From Armatimonadota bacterium (lineage in GTDB: Bacteria > Armatimonadota > JAAZEB01), in NCBI GenBank assembly GCA_012512505.1, contig JAAZEB010000351.1:1-37006 (forward strand): a DNA stretch of 37,006 nucleotides, written 5' to 3'. Made by a program: the position numbers and the translations under genes. The notes under the pieces are model-generated. The model did not search any database. It saw only the letters and a list, made by a program, of their open reading frames with translations, and had not been told where the DNA came from. This document shows, in pieces, positions 9,387-16,856 of the stretch (the stretch's first letter is position 1; each line of letters starts with the position of its first letter).

Positions 9387-9668
9387 GCGGCTTCTCAGAC
9401 CGCTGAAGCCCGATTGCTCGGGCACTCCGGCCAGTTGCCTGGGAGAGTAGCGGAGTGCCGCAGCCATGCGGCTTCCTAACAGTGTGAAGCCCGATTGCTC
9501 GGGCACTCCGGCTAGTTGCCTGGGAGAGTACCGGAGTGCCGCAGCGATGCGGCTTCCTAACAGTGTGAAGCCCGATTGCTCGGGCACTCCGGCCATCCCT
9601 CCTGGAGGAGTAACATTTCCCCGGCGTCGGACGCCTCCTACGCCGGCCGGCGAGACGCCGGCGATCCG
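9387..9668 (+). repeat. 81-bp tandem REP-like repeats plus composite tail
   Basis: Two complete 81-bp units (9387-9467, 9468-9548) are followed by a third that diverges after about 45 bp into an extra tail (to 9668). Each unit contains three hairpins: CCCGA-TTGC-TCGGG, GGCACTCCGG paired with CCGGAGTGCC across 19 nt, and GCCGCA-N4-TGCGGC at the unit junction. The tail carries GCGTCGGACGCCTCCTACG and GCCGGCGAGACGCCGGCGA-type hairpins. Because 81 is a multiple of three, spurious open frames run through the array. Copies of the unit recur at about 19.4 kb and 29.8 kb. Confidence 0.9.
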
Positions 9669-9750
9669 GCCCATCGGCGTCGGAGACTCCTCCTACGCCT
9701 GGCGAATGGACACCGGGGGCTGCTCCGCGAGGGTGAGGGGAGGACGGACT
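9669..9750 (+). other. Leader before the propeller gene, with a GTCGGAGAC motif
   Basis: After the repeats, 9677-9699 carries GGCGTCGGAGACTCCTCCTACG, a short motif that recurs near 12.6 kb (inverted) and 29.7 kb. The ribosome site GGGGAGG of the next gene is at 9737-9743. No promoter with both boxes was recognised. Confidence 0.45.
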
Positions 9751-11637
9751 ATGGATCGCCGGTTGCTCGTGCTCGCGGCGCTGCTGGCGGCGGCGCCGGC
9801 CGGGGCCGCCAACCTGCTGCCGAACCCGGGCCTGGAGGGTCGCAACCCCCAAACCGGATTGCCCGAGGGGTGGACCCTCGTGGCCGGCCAGGGGGTGCAA
9901 ATCTGCACAGAGCGGCCGCGCCAGGGTCGGCAGTGCGTCCGCTTCCACGACGAGAGCCCCGAGGAGGGGATCTCGCTCGAGTCGCGGCGGCTGCCATGCG
10001 ACCCAGGGTGGCGCTACACGGCCTCGGCCTGGGTGCGCACCCCGGACCGCTGCCAGCCGGGCCTCTACCTGCAGTTCCACGATGAGAGCGGCAGGCGCAT
10101 CGCTGAGCAGCACGTGCGGGCGGAGGGCCCCTGCCCGAAGTGGACGCGCCTGCAGGTGAGTTTCCCCACGCCCGCGGATGCGACGGCGGTTTCCGTGCTC
10201 CTCTACGCTTACATCGGTGACGTGGGCCGCTTCGACTGCGACGACGTGGCGCTGGTGGCGCGCAAGGCGCCGGGCGCCGGGAGGAAGCCGATGGTGGTGG
10301 CAAGCGCCGCAAAGGGAGAGAAGAAGACGCCGGTGACGATCGACGACCGGCTACAGCTCTTCGTCGACCGCTACCTGATCGACGCGCTGGCCGGCGCGGA
10401 GCTGCGCCTGCACTCGCCACAGCCCCGCGAGGTGGCGATCCCGTTCGACCGGCCTTGGGAAGGGCCGGTCAGCTTCTATGTGACGGTGCGCGTCGATGGC
10501 GACACCTACCGGGCCTACTACCGCGGTCAGCCAGGCGTGGGGCACCCGGAGGTCACCTGCTACGCCGAGAGCAAGGACGGCATCGTCTGGACGAAGCCGG
10601 CGTTGGGCCTCTACGAGTTCCAGGGCTCCACCGAGAACAACATCCTCTGGATGGGGGAGGGCACCCACAACTTCACCCCCTTCCTCGACCAAAACCCGGC
10701 CGCGCGCCCGGAGGAGCGTTACAAGGCGCTGGCCGGCGGGCCGCTGATCGCGCTCTGCTCGCCGGATGGGATCCACTGGCGGAAGCTGCGCGACGAGCCG
10801 GTGATCACCCAGGGCGCCTTCGACTCGCAGAACCTCGCCTTCTGGGATAGCGCCCGCGGCCGCTACGCCGCCTACTTCCGTGGCTTCCGCGACGACGTGC
10901 GCGCCGTGCTCACCGCCACCTCGACCGATTTCCTCAACTGGACGGAGCCGGAGTGGATCGACCTGGGCGATAGCCGGCCGGAGCACTTCTACACCAACGC
11001 CACCACCCCCTACTTCCGGGCGCCGGAGATCCTCCTCTGCTTCCCCAAACGCTTTGTGCCCGAGCGCACCTGGAACCCCGAGCACGGGCATCCGGGGCTC
11101 TCCGACGGCCTCTTCCTCACCAGCCGCGACGGGCGCCGTTTCGACCGCACCTTCCTCGAGGCGTTCATCCGGCCCGGGCCCGACCCGGAGAACTGGACCG
11201 AACGCAACATCGGCATCGCCTATGGGGTGGTGCCCACGGGGCCGGGCGAGATCTCGCTCTACTGGGTGGAGCATTACCGTCATCCCACCTGCCGGCTGCG
11301 GCGGGGCGTGCTGCGCACCGACGGCTTTGTCTCCCTCCACGCCGGCTACGCCGGAGGGGAAGCGCTGACGCGGCCGCTCCTTTTTGCCGGCAAGGAGTTG
11401 GTGCTCAACTTCGCCACCTCCGCGGCGGGCAGCGTGCGGGTGGAGCTTCAGGACGAGAAGGGGAAGCCGCTCCCTGGCTTCTCGCTGGCGGAGTGCCCGG
11501 CGATCTACGGCGATGAGCTGGAGCGGGTGGTGCGCTGGCGCGATGGCGCCGACGTGAGTTCCCTGGCTGGCCGGCGCGTGCGCCTGCGCTTCCGCCTCCA
11601 GGACGCGGATCTCTACTCGTTCCGTTTCCGTGGCTGA
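9751..11637 (+). CDS. Secreted protein: carbohydrate-binding-like domain plus five-bladed-propeller glycosidase-like domain
   Basis: A 628-residue exported protein. A signal peptide is clear (MDRRLLVLAALLAAAPAGAA). Residues about 20-170 look like a jelly-roll carbohydrate-binding module: ANLLPNPGLEGRNPQTGLPE at the start and RFDCDDVALVARK at the end, as in CBM4/9-type domains. After a short basic linker, residues about 195-620 (LFVDRYLID..., FDRPWEGPVSFYVTV, YRAYYRG) resemble the furanosidase-type beta-propeller proteins common in Planctomycetes and Verrucomicrobia. These are related to GH43/GH32 folds but often lack assigned activity. Start ATG 9751 has GGGGAGG 7 nt upstream; a longer frame reaching into the repeats to 9466 is rejected. 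The likely role is glycan breakdown outside the cytoplasm; the substrate is unknown. Confidence 0.85.
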   Translation: MDRRLLVLAALLAAAPAGAANLLPNPGLEGRNPQTGLPEGWTLVAGQGVQICTERPRQGRQCVRFHDESPEEGISLESRRLPCDPGWRYTASAWVRTPDRCQPGLYLQFHDESGRRIAEQHVRAEGPCPKWTRLQVSFPTPADATAVSVLLYAYIGDVGRFDCDDVALVARKAPGAGRKPMVVASAAKGEKKTPVTIDDRLQLFVDRYLIDALAGAELRLHSPQPREVAIPFDRPWEGPVSFYVTVRVDGDTYRAYYRGQPGVGHPEVTCYAESKDGIVWTKPALGLYEFQGSTENNILWMGEGTHNFTPFLDQNPAARPEERYKALAGGPLIALCSPDGIHWRKLRDEPVITQGAFDSQNLAFWDSARGRYAAYFRGFRDDVRAVLTATSTDFLNWTEPEWIDLGDSRPEHFYTNATTPYFRAPEILLCFPKRFVPERTWNPEHGHPGLSDGLFLTSRDGRRFDRTFLEAFIRPGPDPENWTERNIGIAYGVVPTGPGEISLYWVEHYRHPTCRLRRGVLRTDGFVSLHAGYAGGEALTRPLLFAGKELVLNFATSAAGSVRVELQDEKGKPLPGFSLAECPAIYGDELERVVRWRDGADVSSLAGRRVRLRFRLQDADLYSFRFRG

Positions 11638-12854: not shown

Positions 12855-14651
12855 CTACCGTGACTGTTCGCGGAGCGGGTCTAGCGGCGCCGGGGTAGTC
12901 TGATCGGCTGGCGTCGCGGCCGGTAGTGGTGCCGAGGGCGACGCCTCGGCCATCAACTCGCGCACCCAGGCCGCTGCCTCCTCCGCGGAGAGCTGCCCCG
13001 CCGCGTAACGCGCGCACAGCGCGTCCAGATCCATCCGCCAGACCCGGTGCCGCCGGCCGGCCAGGCGCGCGCGCGTGGCCGGAAGCATCTCCAGGCCCGG
13101 GGCGTTGCCACAGCAGAGCAGGGTGATGGCTGCCTCGCCAATGGCGTCCGCCATATTGGCCGTCCAGCGGTCTGCCTCCGCCGCCGGCAGACCAGCGGGC
13201 AGCACCAGCCATACCTGCGCGGCCCGGCGCAACGCCGCCCGGCACAAATCCTCCGGCGCCGCCCCTGGCGTGCCCACCAGGTGAAGCAGCCGCAGCCGCC
13301 GCGGCCCTGGCACCGCCGCCCCGAGTTCCACCCGGTAAGTGCTCGACTGGCCGGGTGTCGCCGCCGGTTGGTGCAGCCGCTGCCACAGATCGTAGGCCAG
13401 GTCATCCAGCACCGTGCCGCCCTGGCTAGGGTCGGCAAGCTGCGCGTGCGCGGCAAGGTGACCGAAGAGAGCGTACAAGCGGCCCGACTCCGCTGGCCTC
13501 GGGCTGGCGACCGCCACCTCGGCCGGCGCCACGGCCCGCCGGCTCGCTTGCAAGTAACGGAACCAGGCTGGCACCCCCCGCAGTACCGCTCGCAGTGGCA
13601 CCCCGCCCGTCGCGGATGGCACGAACAGACACGGCAGGATACAGAGGCTGAAGAAAGCCCATGTCAGGAGCATCTGGAGGGGTTGGGTGTCCTCCCTCCA
13701 GGTACTGGCAAGCCACATACTCCAGGCCGGCAGTATTGCCCAGGCGCGCGATATGTCGGGCCCCGACAGGTGCGACTGATGCCGCCGTGCCTCCCCGGTA
13801 GCCCAGAACTGCCGGCGCAGGGGGCCCTGCCGCAGGGTGATCAAGACTGCACGAGCAACCCGCGCCTCGATCCACTGGTGCCGGAGGCGCGACTGGCCCG
13901 ACGCGGCGGGGCCGCCACTTCCCGCCTGGGCACGCCGGCGGAGGCTGCCGCATACCTCTTGCACCCGGCGCCGCACCGCCGCGCCCAGGCCGGGCACTGC
14001 CTCCAGCCTTGCCGCCAGTTCATCGACGGTCTCTGCCACCACTGCCAGGTGCTCGGTCTCAGAGCGCCAGGCGCGTTTCAGGATGCTCTGGATGCTTGCG
14101 GCCTCGGCCCCCTCGGAGAACGCCTCGAACTTGTGCCGCTCGTGCCGGTAGGTATAGACCACCTCCTCGTAGCTCACTAGGTCCTCGGGGATGACGCGCT
14201 CGCCACAGTAGCAGGGCACCTCTCCCCTGCCGCCACAACCACTGCAGGGGAGGGATCCCTGCGGGGAGCGGCCGGTGCCGCCGCAACCGCCGCAGCGCCG
14301 CCGGCCAGCGCCGTGGCAGAGCTCGCATTGGCCAACCACGCGCGTTTCCCGCAGCGGGAACGCCTCCTCGCCATCGACGAAACTGCCCTCCGGCGGCGGA
14401 TGGGGATCGGGGGCATCGTACCAGCGGATGCGCCAGGCGGCCCCTCCTATGGCGTGCCGCCACCGGCGCTGGACCGTCTCCATCTGCAGGTCGGCCCGGA
14501 TGTGGACGCCAACCAGCCGCTCGGTGGCGCAGATGCTCAGGTCATCCACCGCTGCTGGCCCGCCAATCAGCCAGCAGCGCCACGAGCGCCGGTAGCCCTC
14601 CAAGTAGTGCAGGAGCGCCAACACCGGGTCGATGCTCCCAGGCGTGCCCAC
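12855..14651 (-). CDS. DnaJ-type zinc-finger membrane protein of the GTPase cassette (novel architecture)
   Basis: A 598-residue protein not assigned to a named family. Residues 1-105 form an unrecognised N-terminal domain. Residues 109-149 are a DnaJ-like cysteine-rich zinc finger (CELCHGAG, CGGCGGTG, CSGCGGRG, then CYCG) but no J-domain is present. A charged helical region follows (about 160-290). One strong hydrophobic segment (about 327-348, LTWAFFSLCILPCLFV) and a weaker one before it suggest membrane anchoring. The C-terminal third has a beta-alpha pattern LRLLHLVGTPG...AAQVWLVLPAG. This looks like the Walker B and following strand of a GTPase fold lacking a P-loop; that is an inference. 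GTG 14651 is chosen because AAGGAG lies 5 nt upstream. Upstream is a repeat array, then the GAP1-like and GTPase genes on the same strand. Confidence 0.75.
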   Translation of the reverse strand: MGTPGSIDPVLALLHYLEGYRRSWRCWLIGGPAAVDDLSICATERLVGVHIRADLQMETVQRRWRHAIGGAAWRIRWYDAPDPHPPPEGSFVDGEEAFPLRETRVVGQCELCHGAGRRRCGGCGGTGRSPQGSLPCSGCGGRGEVPCYCGERVIPEDLVSYEEVVYTYRHERHKFEAFSEGAEAASIQSILKRAWRSETEHLAVVAETVDELAARLEAVPGLGAAVRRRVQEVCGSLRRRAQAGSGGPAASGQSRLRHQWIEARVARAVLITLRQGPLRRQFWATGEARRHQSHLSGPDISRAWAILPAWSMWLASTWREDTQPLQMLLTWAFFSLCILPCLFVPSATGGVPLRAVLRGVPAWFRYLQASRRAVAPAEVAVASPRPAESGRLYALFGHLAAHAQLADPSQGGTVLDDLAYDLWQRLHQPAATPGQSSTYRVELGAAVPGPRRLRLLHLVGTPGAAPEDLCRAALRRAAQVWLVLPAGLPAAEADRWTANMADAIGEAAITLLCCGNAPGLEMLPATRARLAGRRHRVWRMDLDALCARYAAGQLSAEEAAAWVRELMAEASPSAPLPAATPADQTTPAPLDPLREQSR

Positions 14652-15009
14652 CGGCTCTCCTTCCCCTCGCAGGCCCCCCAATGCAGGGGGGTGTTGGCCC
14701 CCCCCTTCCCCCCCAATACTGGGGGGGCTCCACTCGCCGCAGAATCAGTTCCCCCGAAATCGGGGGGATAGGGGGCTCTCCATCTCGCCCCCCCTTCCCC
14801 CCCAATACTGGGGGGGGCTCCACGCACTGCAGAATCAGTTCCCCCCGAAATCGGGGGATAGGGGGGCCCTCCATCTCGCCCCCCAGCCTGGGGGGCACCC
14901 ACTCGCTGCAGAACCGGTTCCCCCCGGTTTCGGGGGGCTAGGGGGGCCAACCACTGTTCCCCCCGAAATCGGGGGGCTAGGGGGGCTATCTCTTTGCCCT
15001 CCCGCCGCC
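14652..15009. repeat. G-tract palindromic repeat array (89-bp unit) inside the cassette
   Basis: Between about 14671 and 14990 lie at least eight C6-8/G6-8 palindromes. Some have the loop AATACT (14708-14727, 14797-14817) and others the core CCCCCCGAAATCGGGGGG (14751, 14841, 14959 and a variant at 14920). Two units starting at 14708 and 14797 are near-identical with an 89-bp period; a third is degenerate. Each unit also carries a CTGCAGAATCAGTT-type spacer. Runs of five to eight G on both strands could form strong hairpins or G-quadruplexes. It fills the whole gap between two genes of one cassette. Confidence 0.9.
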
Positions 15010-16005
15010 TCAGCGTGAGGTCGCTTTCTTCACCAACTCCTGAACGCGCTGCTGCAGTTCTGGCGGCTGCTGTTGCTTGGACGCGCGCAGCAAGGCCCGG
15101 GTGCGCCCGTGCCAGAGCGCCTCCAGGCACTCCAGCACCAGCCGGTGCGTTTCCGGGAAGGAGCAGCCCGGCCAGGGAGGGGCTTCCAGCAGCTCGGCGA
15201 GCGCGGTGGCAAACGCTTCGGGTCCAACGCGCCCCTCGCGCCTCTCCGGCGCCATCCGGGTGGCGGGATTGATCACCAGGCGGTCCCCCGGGCCGGGCCG
15301 GCCGCGGAGCCGGGCCAGGAGACCGCGCCGCCCGGCAGCCGGTGGCGCGGGCAAGAAGACGATCTCCTCGCGTCCCACCGCGTCGGCCGTGGTGCAGGCG
15401 GTGCAGGCGCGCGTTTGCCCGAGGCAGCCCGGCGGCAGCAGGGCGTAGATCAGGGTGAGGAGTTGGCGGGCTTCCGGGGTATCGGTGCTGAGGATGCAGA
15501 TATCGCCGCCAAGTGCGCACCCGTGCGCCAGCCGCGCCACGAACGGCACGCCGAAACGGGCCACGACCGACTGCCAGCGGTCGCGCGAAGCGAGGATCCC
15601 CTCCCGGGCAATCGCCTCCGCCAGGGATGCCGCCGCTGCCTGGGCGCTGGCGCGCTCGCCCTCCAGGCGGGCCAGGGCAACGCCGACGGCCGCTACCTCC
15701 CGGCCCCAGCCGTTCTCCGGACACGGGCGGAGCAGCGCGACCCGCGCCGAGAGCACCGGTCGCCCCCACTCGTCCACGGCGCCGCCGTCGAAGACGTGGG
15801 AGATGCCAACACAGTCGCCAGCGGGGAAGAGCTTCAGCGCGCGGTAGACGGCGCCGGCGCGGAGGTCCAGCGGCAGGCTGCGCGGGAACGCCTCCGTGGT
15901 GACGGCAAGCGTCTCCGCTGCCGAGAGGGGAGACTCGCTGGCCGGCTTCGCCTGGAAGTCCAGGCACACCAGGCGCACGCCCGGATCCTCGTGACTGGCG
16001 GCCAT
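15010..16005 (-). CDS. GAP1-like (GTPase-associated protein) component
   Basis: A 331-residue soluble protein without a signal peptide. I do not recognise it with certainty. The N-terminal pattern (RAGAVYRALKLF, ISHVFDGGAVDEWGRPVLSARVALL) resembles the N-terminal domains of GTPase-associated protein 1. So does the mid-protein pattern (LTLIYALLPPGCLGQTRACT...VGREEIVFLPA). GAP1 was described as a partner of double-GTPase conflict systems by Aravind and colleagues. The C-terminus is a Gln/Lys-rich helical tail. The ATG at 16005 overlaps the GTPase stop by one base (TGATG) and has GGAGGAA upstream, so translation is coupled. A longer frame to 16131 is rejected because it would overlap the GTPase gene. 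Function: probable regulator or adaptor of the GTPase, by context. Confidence 0.72.
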   Translation of the reverse strand: MAASHEDPGVRLVCLDFQAKPASESPLSAAETLAVTTEAFPRSLPLDLRAGAVYRALKLFPAGDCVGISHVFDGGAVDEWGRPVLSARVALLRPCPENGWGREVAAVGVALARLEGERASAQAAAASLAEAIAREGILASRDRWQSVVARFGVPFVARLAHGCALGGDICILSTDTPEARQLLTLIYALLPPGCLGQTRACTACTTADAVGREEIVFLPAPPAAGRRGLLARLRGRPGPGDRLVINPATRMAPERREGRVGPEAFATALAELLEAPPWPGCSFPETHRLVLECLEALWHGRTRALLRASKQQQPPELQQRVQELVKKATSR

Positions 16006-16856
16006 CAGCGTTCCTCCGCGAAGCAAAGCGCCAGATCGGCCAGCAGCTCCTCCACGCCCTCGATGCGGTAGGAGAGGGAGCCATCGGCATCGCGGGTGCT
16101 GCCGGCGTAGGCAACGCAGTGCTCGTGACACTCGATCCCCTGGTGGCGCAGGCGGTTGAACAAGATGGAGTAGGCGGTGTGGATCAGGCTGCGCACCTGC
16201 GCCACCGGCAGACAGTGAATGTCCGCCTTGGTAAAGATGAAGAAGATCGGCTTGCCGCGCATGCTGGTGTTCATCTGGATGGCGGTCTCGATGCCGCGAC
16301 AGAGGGGGGCCACCTGCTCGGCGAGGGCAGCGCGCAGGTGGTCCTCGCGCTCCGTTGGCGAGAGCGCCGCGAACTCCTCCCGCGTGCGCAGGCGCCGCGC
16401 CAGGTCTACCACCACCAGCAGCCCATCAGCGTTGACCACCAGGGAGAAGAACTGCCTCACGATCGGGTGGGCTAGTGGGCCGTCGGGCGTGGGGGTCTGG
16501 AGGACGTTGGTCACCTCCACCAGTTCACCGCCGGGGGTGTCGTGGCTGGAGATCACCAGGCGCACCGGCAGCTCGCGCTGCAGCCCGCCCCGGTTCAGCA
16601 CCACGGTGTTTACCTGCAGCACCAGCGGCTGCTTCTGCACGCTGGCCGGGATCGGGGCGTTGCGCAGCATGAACGGGTCGATCTCGTAGAAGTAGCGGGC
16701 GGTCTCAACGCTTGGCTGGCCATAGCCGCTGTCAGAGAGGTAGCGTCCGATCCCCCACGCCAGGCAGGTCTTGCCGGCGCCGTTCACCCCCAGGATCGGC
16801 AGTCGCCGCGGCCGGGGCTGGCCCCACCGCCTGCGGATGCTCCAGAAGGACCTCAC
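16005..16856 (-). CDS. Small P-loop GTPase (DO-GTPase/TRAFAC-like)
   Basis: A 283-residue predicted GTPase. Visible motifs are the G1 loop GVNGAGKT (residues 23-30), a DTPGG Walker B/G3 (DxxG, 106-109), the hydrophobic strand ADGLLVVVDLA (143-153) and the G4 motif TKAD (209-212). This gives specificity for guanine by family rule. The N-terminus is basic (SIRRRWGQPRPRR) and might touch membrane or nucleic acid. The pattern fits the bacterial double-GTPase/TRAFAC group found with GAP1 proteins, not EngA, Era or Obg. GTG at 16856 is chosen because AAGGAGG lies 5 nt upstream; ATG 16874 is in frame but has no ribosome site. It heads the minus-strand cassette and overlaps the GAP1-like gene. Confidence 0.82.
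   Translation of the reverse strand: MRSFWSIRRRWGQPRPRRLPILGVNGAGKTCLAWGIGRYLSDSGYGQPSVETARYFYEIDPFMLRNAPIPASVQKQPLVLQVNTVVLNRGGLQRELPVRLVISSHDTPGGELVEVTNVLQTPTPDGPLAHPIVRQFFSLVVNADGLLVVVDLARRLRTREEFAALSPTEREDHLRAALAEQVAPLCRGIETAIQMNTSMRGKPIFFIFTKADIHCLPVAQVRSLIHTAYSILFNRLRHQGIECHEHCVAYAGSTRDADGSLSYRIEGVEELLADLALCFAEER

Follow-up and report, generated by a model that had tools for sequence, protein, structure and literature searches.

Predicted GTPase-centric systems have been described by Kaur et al. 2020 (PMC7159879); the members of the DO-GTPase2 family (PF19993) are their double-GTPases. The published order in these systems is that of a GTPase gene followed by the gene of its partner, and 67% of the systems of the GAP1 type have a transmembrane (TM) component (PMC7159879). 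Within the phylum Armatimonadota GAP1-N2 is present in 7 of 291 genomes. Zinc-ribbon DO-GTPase2 genes are found there together with genes for two membrane proteins and AAA-type ATPases (locus L067, 3661-12381, and locus L045, 1632-8714), and at L067 also with a GAP1 gene and what appears to be a vWA-type protein; these sets are probably fuller GTPase-centric systems. At L046 (9268-11370) a GAP1-like protein that is missed by the Pfam GAP1 models is recovered by a profile made from the phylum (z=42), and a DO-GTPase is encoded directly downstream. In three Armatimonadota genomes, finally, a TM-bearing DO-GTPase2 is directly followed by a partner gene (L043 8827-12074, L048 2-3699 and L049 6935-11130); these partners align as an apparently undescribed family with a conserved N-terminal domain and, more distally, a TM helix.

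The window, i.e. the whole stretch of DNA that was analysed, comprises 37,006 nucleotides (positions 1 to 37,006 of contig JAAZEB010000351.1, assembly GCA_012512505.1) from a groundwater Armatimonadota bacterium with a genome of 5.66 Mb. It carries three open reading frames on the minus strand that invite comparison with the systems above. Our preferred reading, to which we assign a probability of roughly 0.4, is that genes 1 and 2 constitute a lineage-private, translationally coupled GTPase switch, with the product of gene 3 as a probable membrane partner. The features are as follows.

16005..16856, minus strand: gene 1, a 283-aa GTPase; GTG start with AAAGGAGG upstream, G1, G3 and G4 motifs, sub-threshold match to DO-GTPase2
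15010..16005, minus strand: gene 2, a putative partner of 331 aa without family match; its ATG and the TGA of gene 1 have one base in common
14652..15009, no strand assigned: REP-like palindrome array of 358 bp that separates gene 2 from gene 3, with repeats of the CCCCCCGAAATCGGGGGG and CCCCCCCAATACTGGGGGGG types
12855..14651, minus strand: gene 3, a 598-aa zinc-finger protein; start from the alignment with two relatives, hydropathy scan
14517..14651, minus strand: N-terminal module of gene 3 (SIDPVLALLHYLEGYRRSWRCWLIGGPAAVDDLS), its most conserved part, with two copies in the sister genome G002 (JACQGM01)

The third-position GC content of the three genes (0.90, 0.87 and 0.83 for genes 1, 2 and 3, respectively) is coding-like and fits genes of the host genome.

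Gene 1 and the DO-GTPase2 family

The motifs of gene 1 follow each other in the order that is characteristic of TRAFAC-type GTPases (G1 GVNGAGKT, G3 HDTPGGE, beta-4 ADGLLVVVDL and G4 FTKAD), and its GTG start is preceded by a Shine-Dalgarno site (AAAGGAGG). The small GTPase with GVNGAGKT, DTPG and TKAD that a sequence-only reading of this DNA had reported is thereby borne out. The sole Pfam match at E<=1 is to DO-GTPase2 (PF19993, 15.7 bits, E=0.012) and lies below the family cut-off of 27 bits. As the same model gives FtsY, FlhF-like and ABC proteins sub-threshold scores of about 20-24 bits (L051 9652-10533, L031 925-2079 and L023 1390-2667), a weak match to PF19993 is by itself no evidence of membership. 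A profile of 11 Armatimonadota DO-GTPase2 domains, on the other hand, assigns gene 1 a score of 20.0 bits (E=4e-5), which none of 500 motif-keeping shuffles of gene 1 reached. In a leave-one-out calibration, for which profiles of 8 to 11 of these domains were used with FtsY, FlhF-like, Era-like and ABC proteins as controls, the true DO-GTPases scored 36-241 bits and gene 1 scored 16-25 bits, less than any member of the phylum that was left out; other P-loop proteins reached 11.8-14.4 bits at best. This position between controls and members places gene 1 outside the recognised DO-GTPase2 family, yet closer to it than ordinary P-loop NTPases are. Judged by its sequence, gene 1 is thus a real GTPase of a divergent, TRAFAC-like kind that falls just outside DO-GTPase2, the nearest among the families tested.

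In a profile comparison, the subgroup nearest to gene 1 consisted of the TM-bearing DO-GTPases of three genomes (G185, G150 and G092), each of which likewise has a partner next to it that gives no Pfam GAP1 match. When this subgroup was left out, the DO-GTPase score of gene 1 dropped to 5.6 bits, a value matched by 2 of 300 shuffles, which implies that most of the signal derives from these TM-bearing proteins. Gene 1 and two of the three have the DxPGG form of G3 in common: the Walker B glutamate of DxxGE is found one position later in gene 1 (DTPGGE) and the two members of the TM group read DYPGG, with no glutamate. Gene 1 shares with DO-GTPase2 the order of G1, DxPG(E/G), beta-4 ADGLLVVVD and TKAD, as well as a partner gene immediately downstream, but it differs in the extra residue before the glutamate, in the absence of both N-terminal zinc ribbons and an N-terminal TM segment, and in being a single copy. 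A glocal comparison with the DO-GTPases missed gene 1, but it missed a true member (G220a) too. Single-sequence AlphaFold models of genes 1 and 2 were unusable (pLDDT 44.9 and 38.8, respectively), and a Foldseek search with the low-pLDDT model of gene 1 gave no match at E<=0.001.

Homologues of gene 1 were found in none of the 290 other genomes of the phylum, and relatives were recovered neither by a pattern search of 84,980 species genomes nor from viral contigs, phages and plasmids. The weak matches within the phylum (E 7e-4 to 0.1) are local and many of them lie at the P-loop; the best one (L003/L040) was set aside, as by inspection it resembles a BTAD/STAND-type regulator ATPase. Gene 1 is absent from both same-family genomes and from all others sampled in the phylum, which is unlike what is seen for a housekeeping gene, although two such same-family genomes are few, and one of them is 80% complete, so that absence there is weak evidence. 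That gene 1 is a small GTPase of an ordinary housekeeping or envelope-related kind, with no role in conflict, is therefore considered very unlikely, despite a neighbourhood that would suit it: elsewhere the window holds metabolic and housekeeping genes (an RsmD-like methyltransferase, RecG, a TIM-barrel protein, GalK, an enolase-superfamily protein and GH123), and PADLOC detected no dedicated defence protein in it, giving only cross-hits to the helicase domain of RecG and a weak match to the LOG gene. A defence or envelope-stress context, which would have agreed with the response to phage or to envelope stress suggested earlier, was likewise not found around the locus.

Gene 2 and the GAP1 domains

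The TGA of gene 1 and the ATG of gene 2 overlap by one base at 16005, just as the sequence-only reading had it, and from this overlap we infer that translation of the two genes is very probably coupled. In the switch that we favour, the gene 1 product would bind and hydrolyse GTP, as its motifs suggest, and the gene 2 product, made in step with it, would be an obligate partner that regulates or reads out its nucleotide state. It is the one-base overlap together with the two-gene order that points to such a partnership. The pair occurs in one genome only, and hence co-conservation does not back the functional link; homologues of gene 2 were found in none of the sets searched (250 other genomes of the phylum, viral contigs and plasmids).

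By eye, gene 2 reads GRP plus hydrophobic residues at the place of the GRxG of GAP1 proteins, and LLPPG at the place of their VP/LP stretch; presumably these are the GAP1-like patterns that had been reported before. Neither shuffles nor the profile of the phylum lift them above chance. A GAP1-N2+M profile built from eight members of the phylum gave gene 2 a score of 0.7 bits (rank 44), behind its own shuffles. No Pfam match to GAP1-N1 or GAP1-N2 was obtained at E<=1, and neither a family nor a GAP1 match was found in Pfam, NCBIfam, PADLOC, PHROGs, the PDB sequences or with the phylum GAP1 profile. An hhalign comparison with the eight-sequence GAP1 profile covered 22 columns, as expected of a chance match only, and a match to CATASP (Pfam, E=0.099) was also taken as chance.

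These results bear on the alternative that the locus represents a highly diverged but genuine DO-GTPase/GAP1 conflict system of the GAP1-N2 branch, with gene 2 as a drifted GAP1 and gene 3 as the variable membrane component. Such a system would account for the order of GTPase and partner, which is as published (PMC7159879), for the leaning of gene 1 towards DO-GTPase2 and, by eye, for a GAP1-N core (GRP-x-hydrophobic) followed by a GAP1-M-like LLPPG in gene 2; a TM component is moreover common in the published systems (67%, PMC7159879) and GAP1-N2 does exist in the phylum (7 of the 291 genomes). However, in a glocal test against GAP1 N2+M, 255 of 400 shuffles equalled or beat the score of gene 2 and 96 of 179 decoys reached it, whereas all eight true GAP1 proteins, left out in turn, were recovered at z 7 to 149; G103, a GAP1 protein without a Pfam GAP1 match, was still recovered. 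In a search of the host's own genome GAP1-M was not matched at gene 2 even at E<=10, and among the main ORFs of the window there are no Pfam or PADLOC families that would correspond to an FNIII-repeat protein or a known effector near genes 1-3. We therefore consider this alternative unlikely. Since gene 2 scores like shuffled sequence under conditions in which every left-out true GAP1 is recovered, its GAP1 identity was rejected: at the level of sequence, gene 2 is not detectably a GAP1 protein and lends GAP1 no support.

Gene 2 does resemble the GAP1 proteins (PF20013 for N2, PF20014 for M) in lying directly downstream of a GTPase gene and in a superficially similar motif order, but apart from the missing signal above shuffles it also differs in length (331 aa, against open frames of about 450-980 aa for full-length GAP1s of the phylum). 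The likeness to the TM-bearing DO-GTPase pairs (L043, L048 and L049) consists in a GTPase that is followed by a partner without Pfam GAP1 match and in the DxPGG form of G3, which two of the three have; by profile, these GTPases are also the subgroup closest to gene 1. They have, however, extra N-terminal sequence and TM segments that gene 1 lacks, and gene 2 is not matched by the family of their partners (515-637 aa; -4.6 bits).

The sequence-only reading had proposed a Pfam search of genes 1 and 2 and had staked itself on remote similarity to the DO-GTPase or GAP1 domains and on recurrence of the three genes in other genomes. What was found is a remote DO-GTPase similarity of gene 1, and neither GAP1 similarity of gene 2 nor co-occurrence. 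As gene 1 remains under the family cut-off, GAP1 is not detected, FNIII proteins and known effectors are missing from the surroundings and the set does not recur, the membership of genes 1-3 in the DO-GTPase/GAP1 systems is not established.

Gene 3, the repeat array and the flanking blocks

Gene 3 starts at GTG 14651, and not at 14681 as had been assumed earlier: two relatives in the sister genome start at the same place in the alignment (A1). The encoded protein consists of an N-terminal module of about 45 aa, a zinc finger, a predicted TM helix and a conserved C-terminal domain, for which inspection by eye suggests an alpha/beta fold. The zinc finger (residues about 108-148) contains three full DnaJ-type CxxCxGxG repeats and a fourth cysteine pair (CYC), and the hydropathy scan yields a single TM helix (residues 327-345). 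The description as a DnaJ-type zinc-finger membrane protein that follows the pair thus holds for the repeats and the one predicted helix, with the correction that 358 bp of palindromic repeats separate gene 2 from the start of gene 3. The dN/dS ratios (about 0.16 for the N-terminal module and about 0.5 for the C-terminal domain) imply that gene 3 encodes, or once encoded, a functional protein of which one part is very conserved; as judged from these ratios, it is under purifying selection, which is strongest in the N-terminal module. A GTPase-like C-terminus, also proposed before, was rejected: the domain scores -1.8 to -2.6 bits against DO-GTPases and no better than shuffles against gene 1, and a VGTPG stretch that looks GTPase-like by eye reads CPHG in a relative.

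Relatives of gene 3 were found in one sister genome only (G002, JACQGM01, an Armatimonadetes groundwater MAG), on two contigs and partly decayed. The relative on contig C92 has 76% identity in the N-terminal module and about 42% in the C-terminal domain, but its zinc-finger part is missing, with two TM helices instead, and the frame changes internally; just upstream lies an ORF with a weak match to an IS1595-type transposase zinc ribbon. The relative on contig C215 retains only the N-terminal 45 aa. Comparison of the two members of the family shows the N-terminal module and the C-terminal domain to be kept and the middle to differ. The 45-aa module (IDPVLALLDFLHDYRRSRRCWLIGGPAAVDDLS) is 67-76% conserved among three loci in two genera (14517-14651 in the window, L037 8777-8923 and L038 8151-8288), and what follows it varies between these loci or has been lost. 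A further DnaJ-type CxxCxGxG protein (L039 7904-9778) resembles gene 3 in having a zinc finger with TM helices behind it (33% identity over about 97 aa), but the N-terminal module and C-terminal domain of gene 3 were not found in it, and it has a MotA/ExbB-type neighbour and no GTPase.

The palindrome of the array has 140 matches in its own genome (both strands, at most one mismatch; a near-palindrome may be counted twice), none in the two same-family genomes (G001 and G002) and none for the reversed control. It is a lineage-specific REP-like element that is dispersed through the host genome. A second dispersed repeat type is possibly represented by an 81-bp tandem repeat elsewhere in the window (9404-9640, 2.4-2.9 copies), which overlaps the start region of the ORF at 9466-11637.

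The LOG gene that had been noted downstream is indeed present, but it starts about 330 bp beyond gene 3 with a promoter-like site of its own and belongs to a different conserved block, and on these grounds of spacing, promoter-like site and synteny it was rejected as a fourth part. Together with the neighbouring GH gene it forms a block that is conserved in G001, and GalK and the enolase-superfamily gene form a second block, conserved in both G001 and G002. These blocks sit on different contigs in G001 and neither adjoins the three-gene segment, which implies that this segment occupies a junction particular to the host genome.

The joining here of blocks that are separate in relatives is one of the observations that fit a second alternative, in which genes 1 and 2 form a unit that gene 3, an unrelated gene of the lineage, came to adjoin by chance at a rearrangement breakpoint. 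The 358-bp array between genes 2 and 3 agrees with this as well, as does the setting of the gene 3 relatives in G002, which adjoin ETF-type and PDH-type genes; neither locus has an adjoining GTPase or GAP1-like gene. Genes 1-3, however, are arranged like an operon in strand and order, and repeats that are specific to the host genome, being lacking in both G001 and G002, could have entered an operon that is older than they are. On balance, a chance neighbourship is thought somewhat improbable; the REP-like element may have split an older operon of genes 1-3. The expected co-occurrence of the three genes was not encountered in any other genome that was searched, and the gene 3 relatives come without genes 1 and 2.

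A putative GTPase switch and its probable membrane partner

Under the reading that we prefer, the gene 3 product would probably act with the GTPase pair at the membrane, where GTP-dependent docking of the pair would switch it; this role is suggested by adjacency and strand. By analogy, the working principle resembles that of the DO-GTPase systems, in which a GTPase is encoded upstream of its partner and near membrane components. A role in defence is possible for the three-gene set. The set is that of a single genome, with adjacency as the only link between its three genes and no co-conservation, and the weight that it can carry is limited accordingly.

A more far-reaching version, which we regard as decidedly unlikely when taken as a whole, describes a new kind of switch pair: a GTPase near the TM-bearing DO-GTPases and a partner family unrelated to GAP1 would be coupled to a modular membrane protein with fast turnover, in which a 45-aa docking module and a conserved C-terminal domain would flank a replaceable middle (zinc finger or two TM helices).

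If the proposed switch is real, the GTPase of the predicted DO-GTPase systems is able to take on a partner that is unrelated to GAP1. The role of the GTPase switch would then be separable from that of GAP1, and an unrecognised group of such pairs would be indicated for the Armatimonadota.
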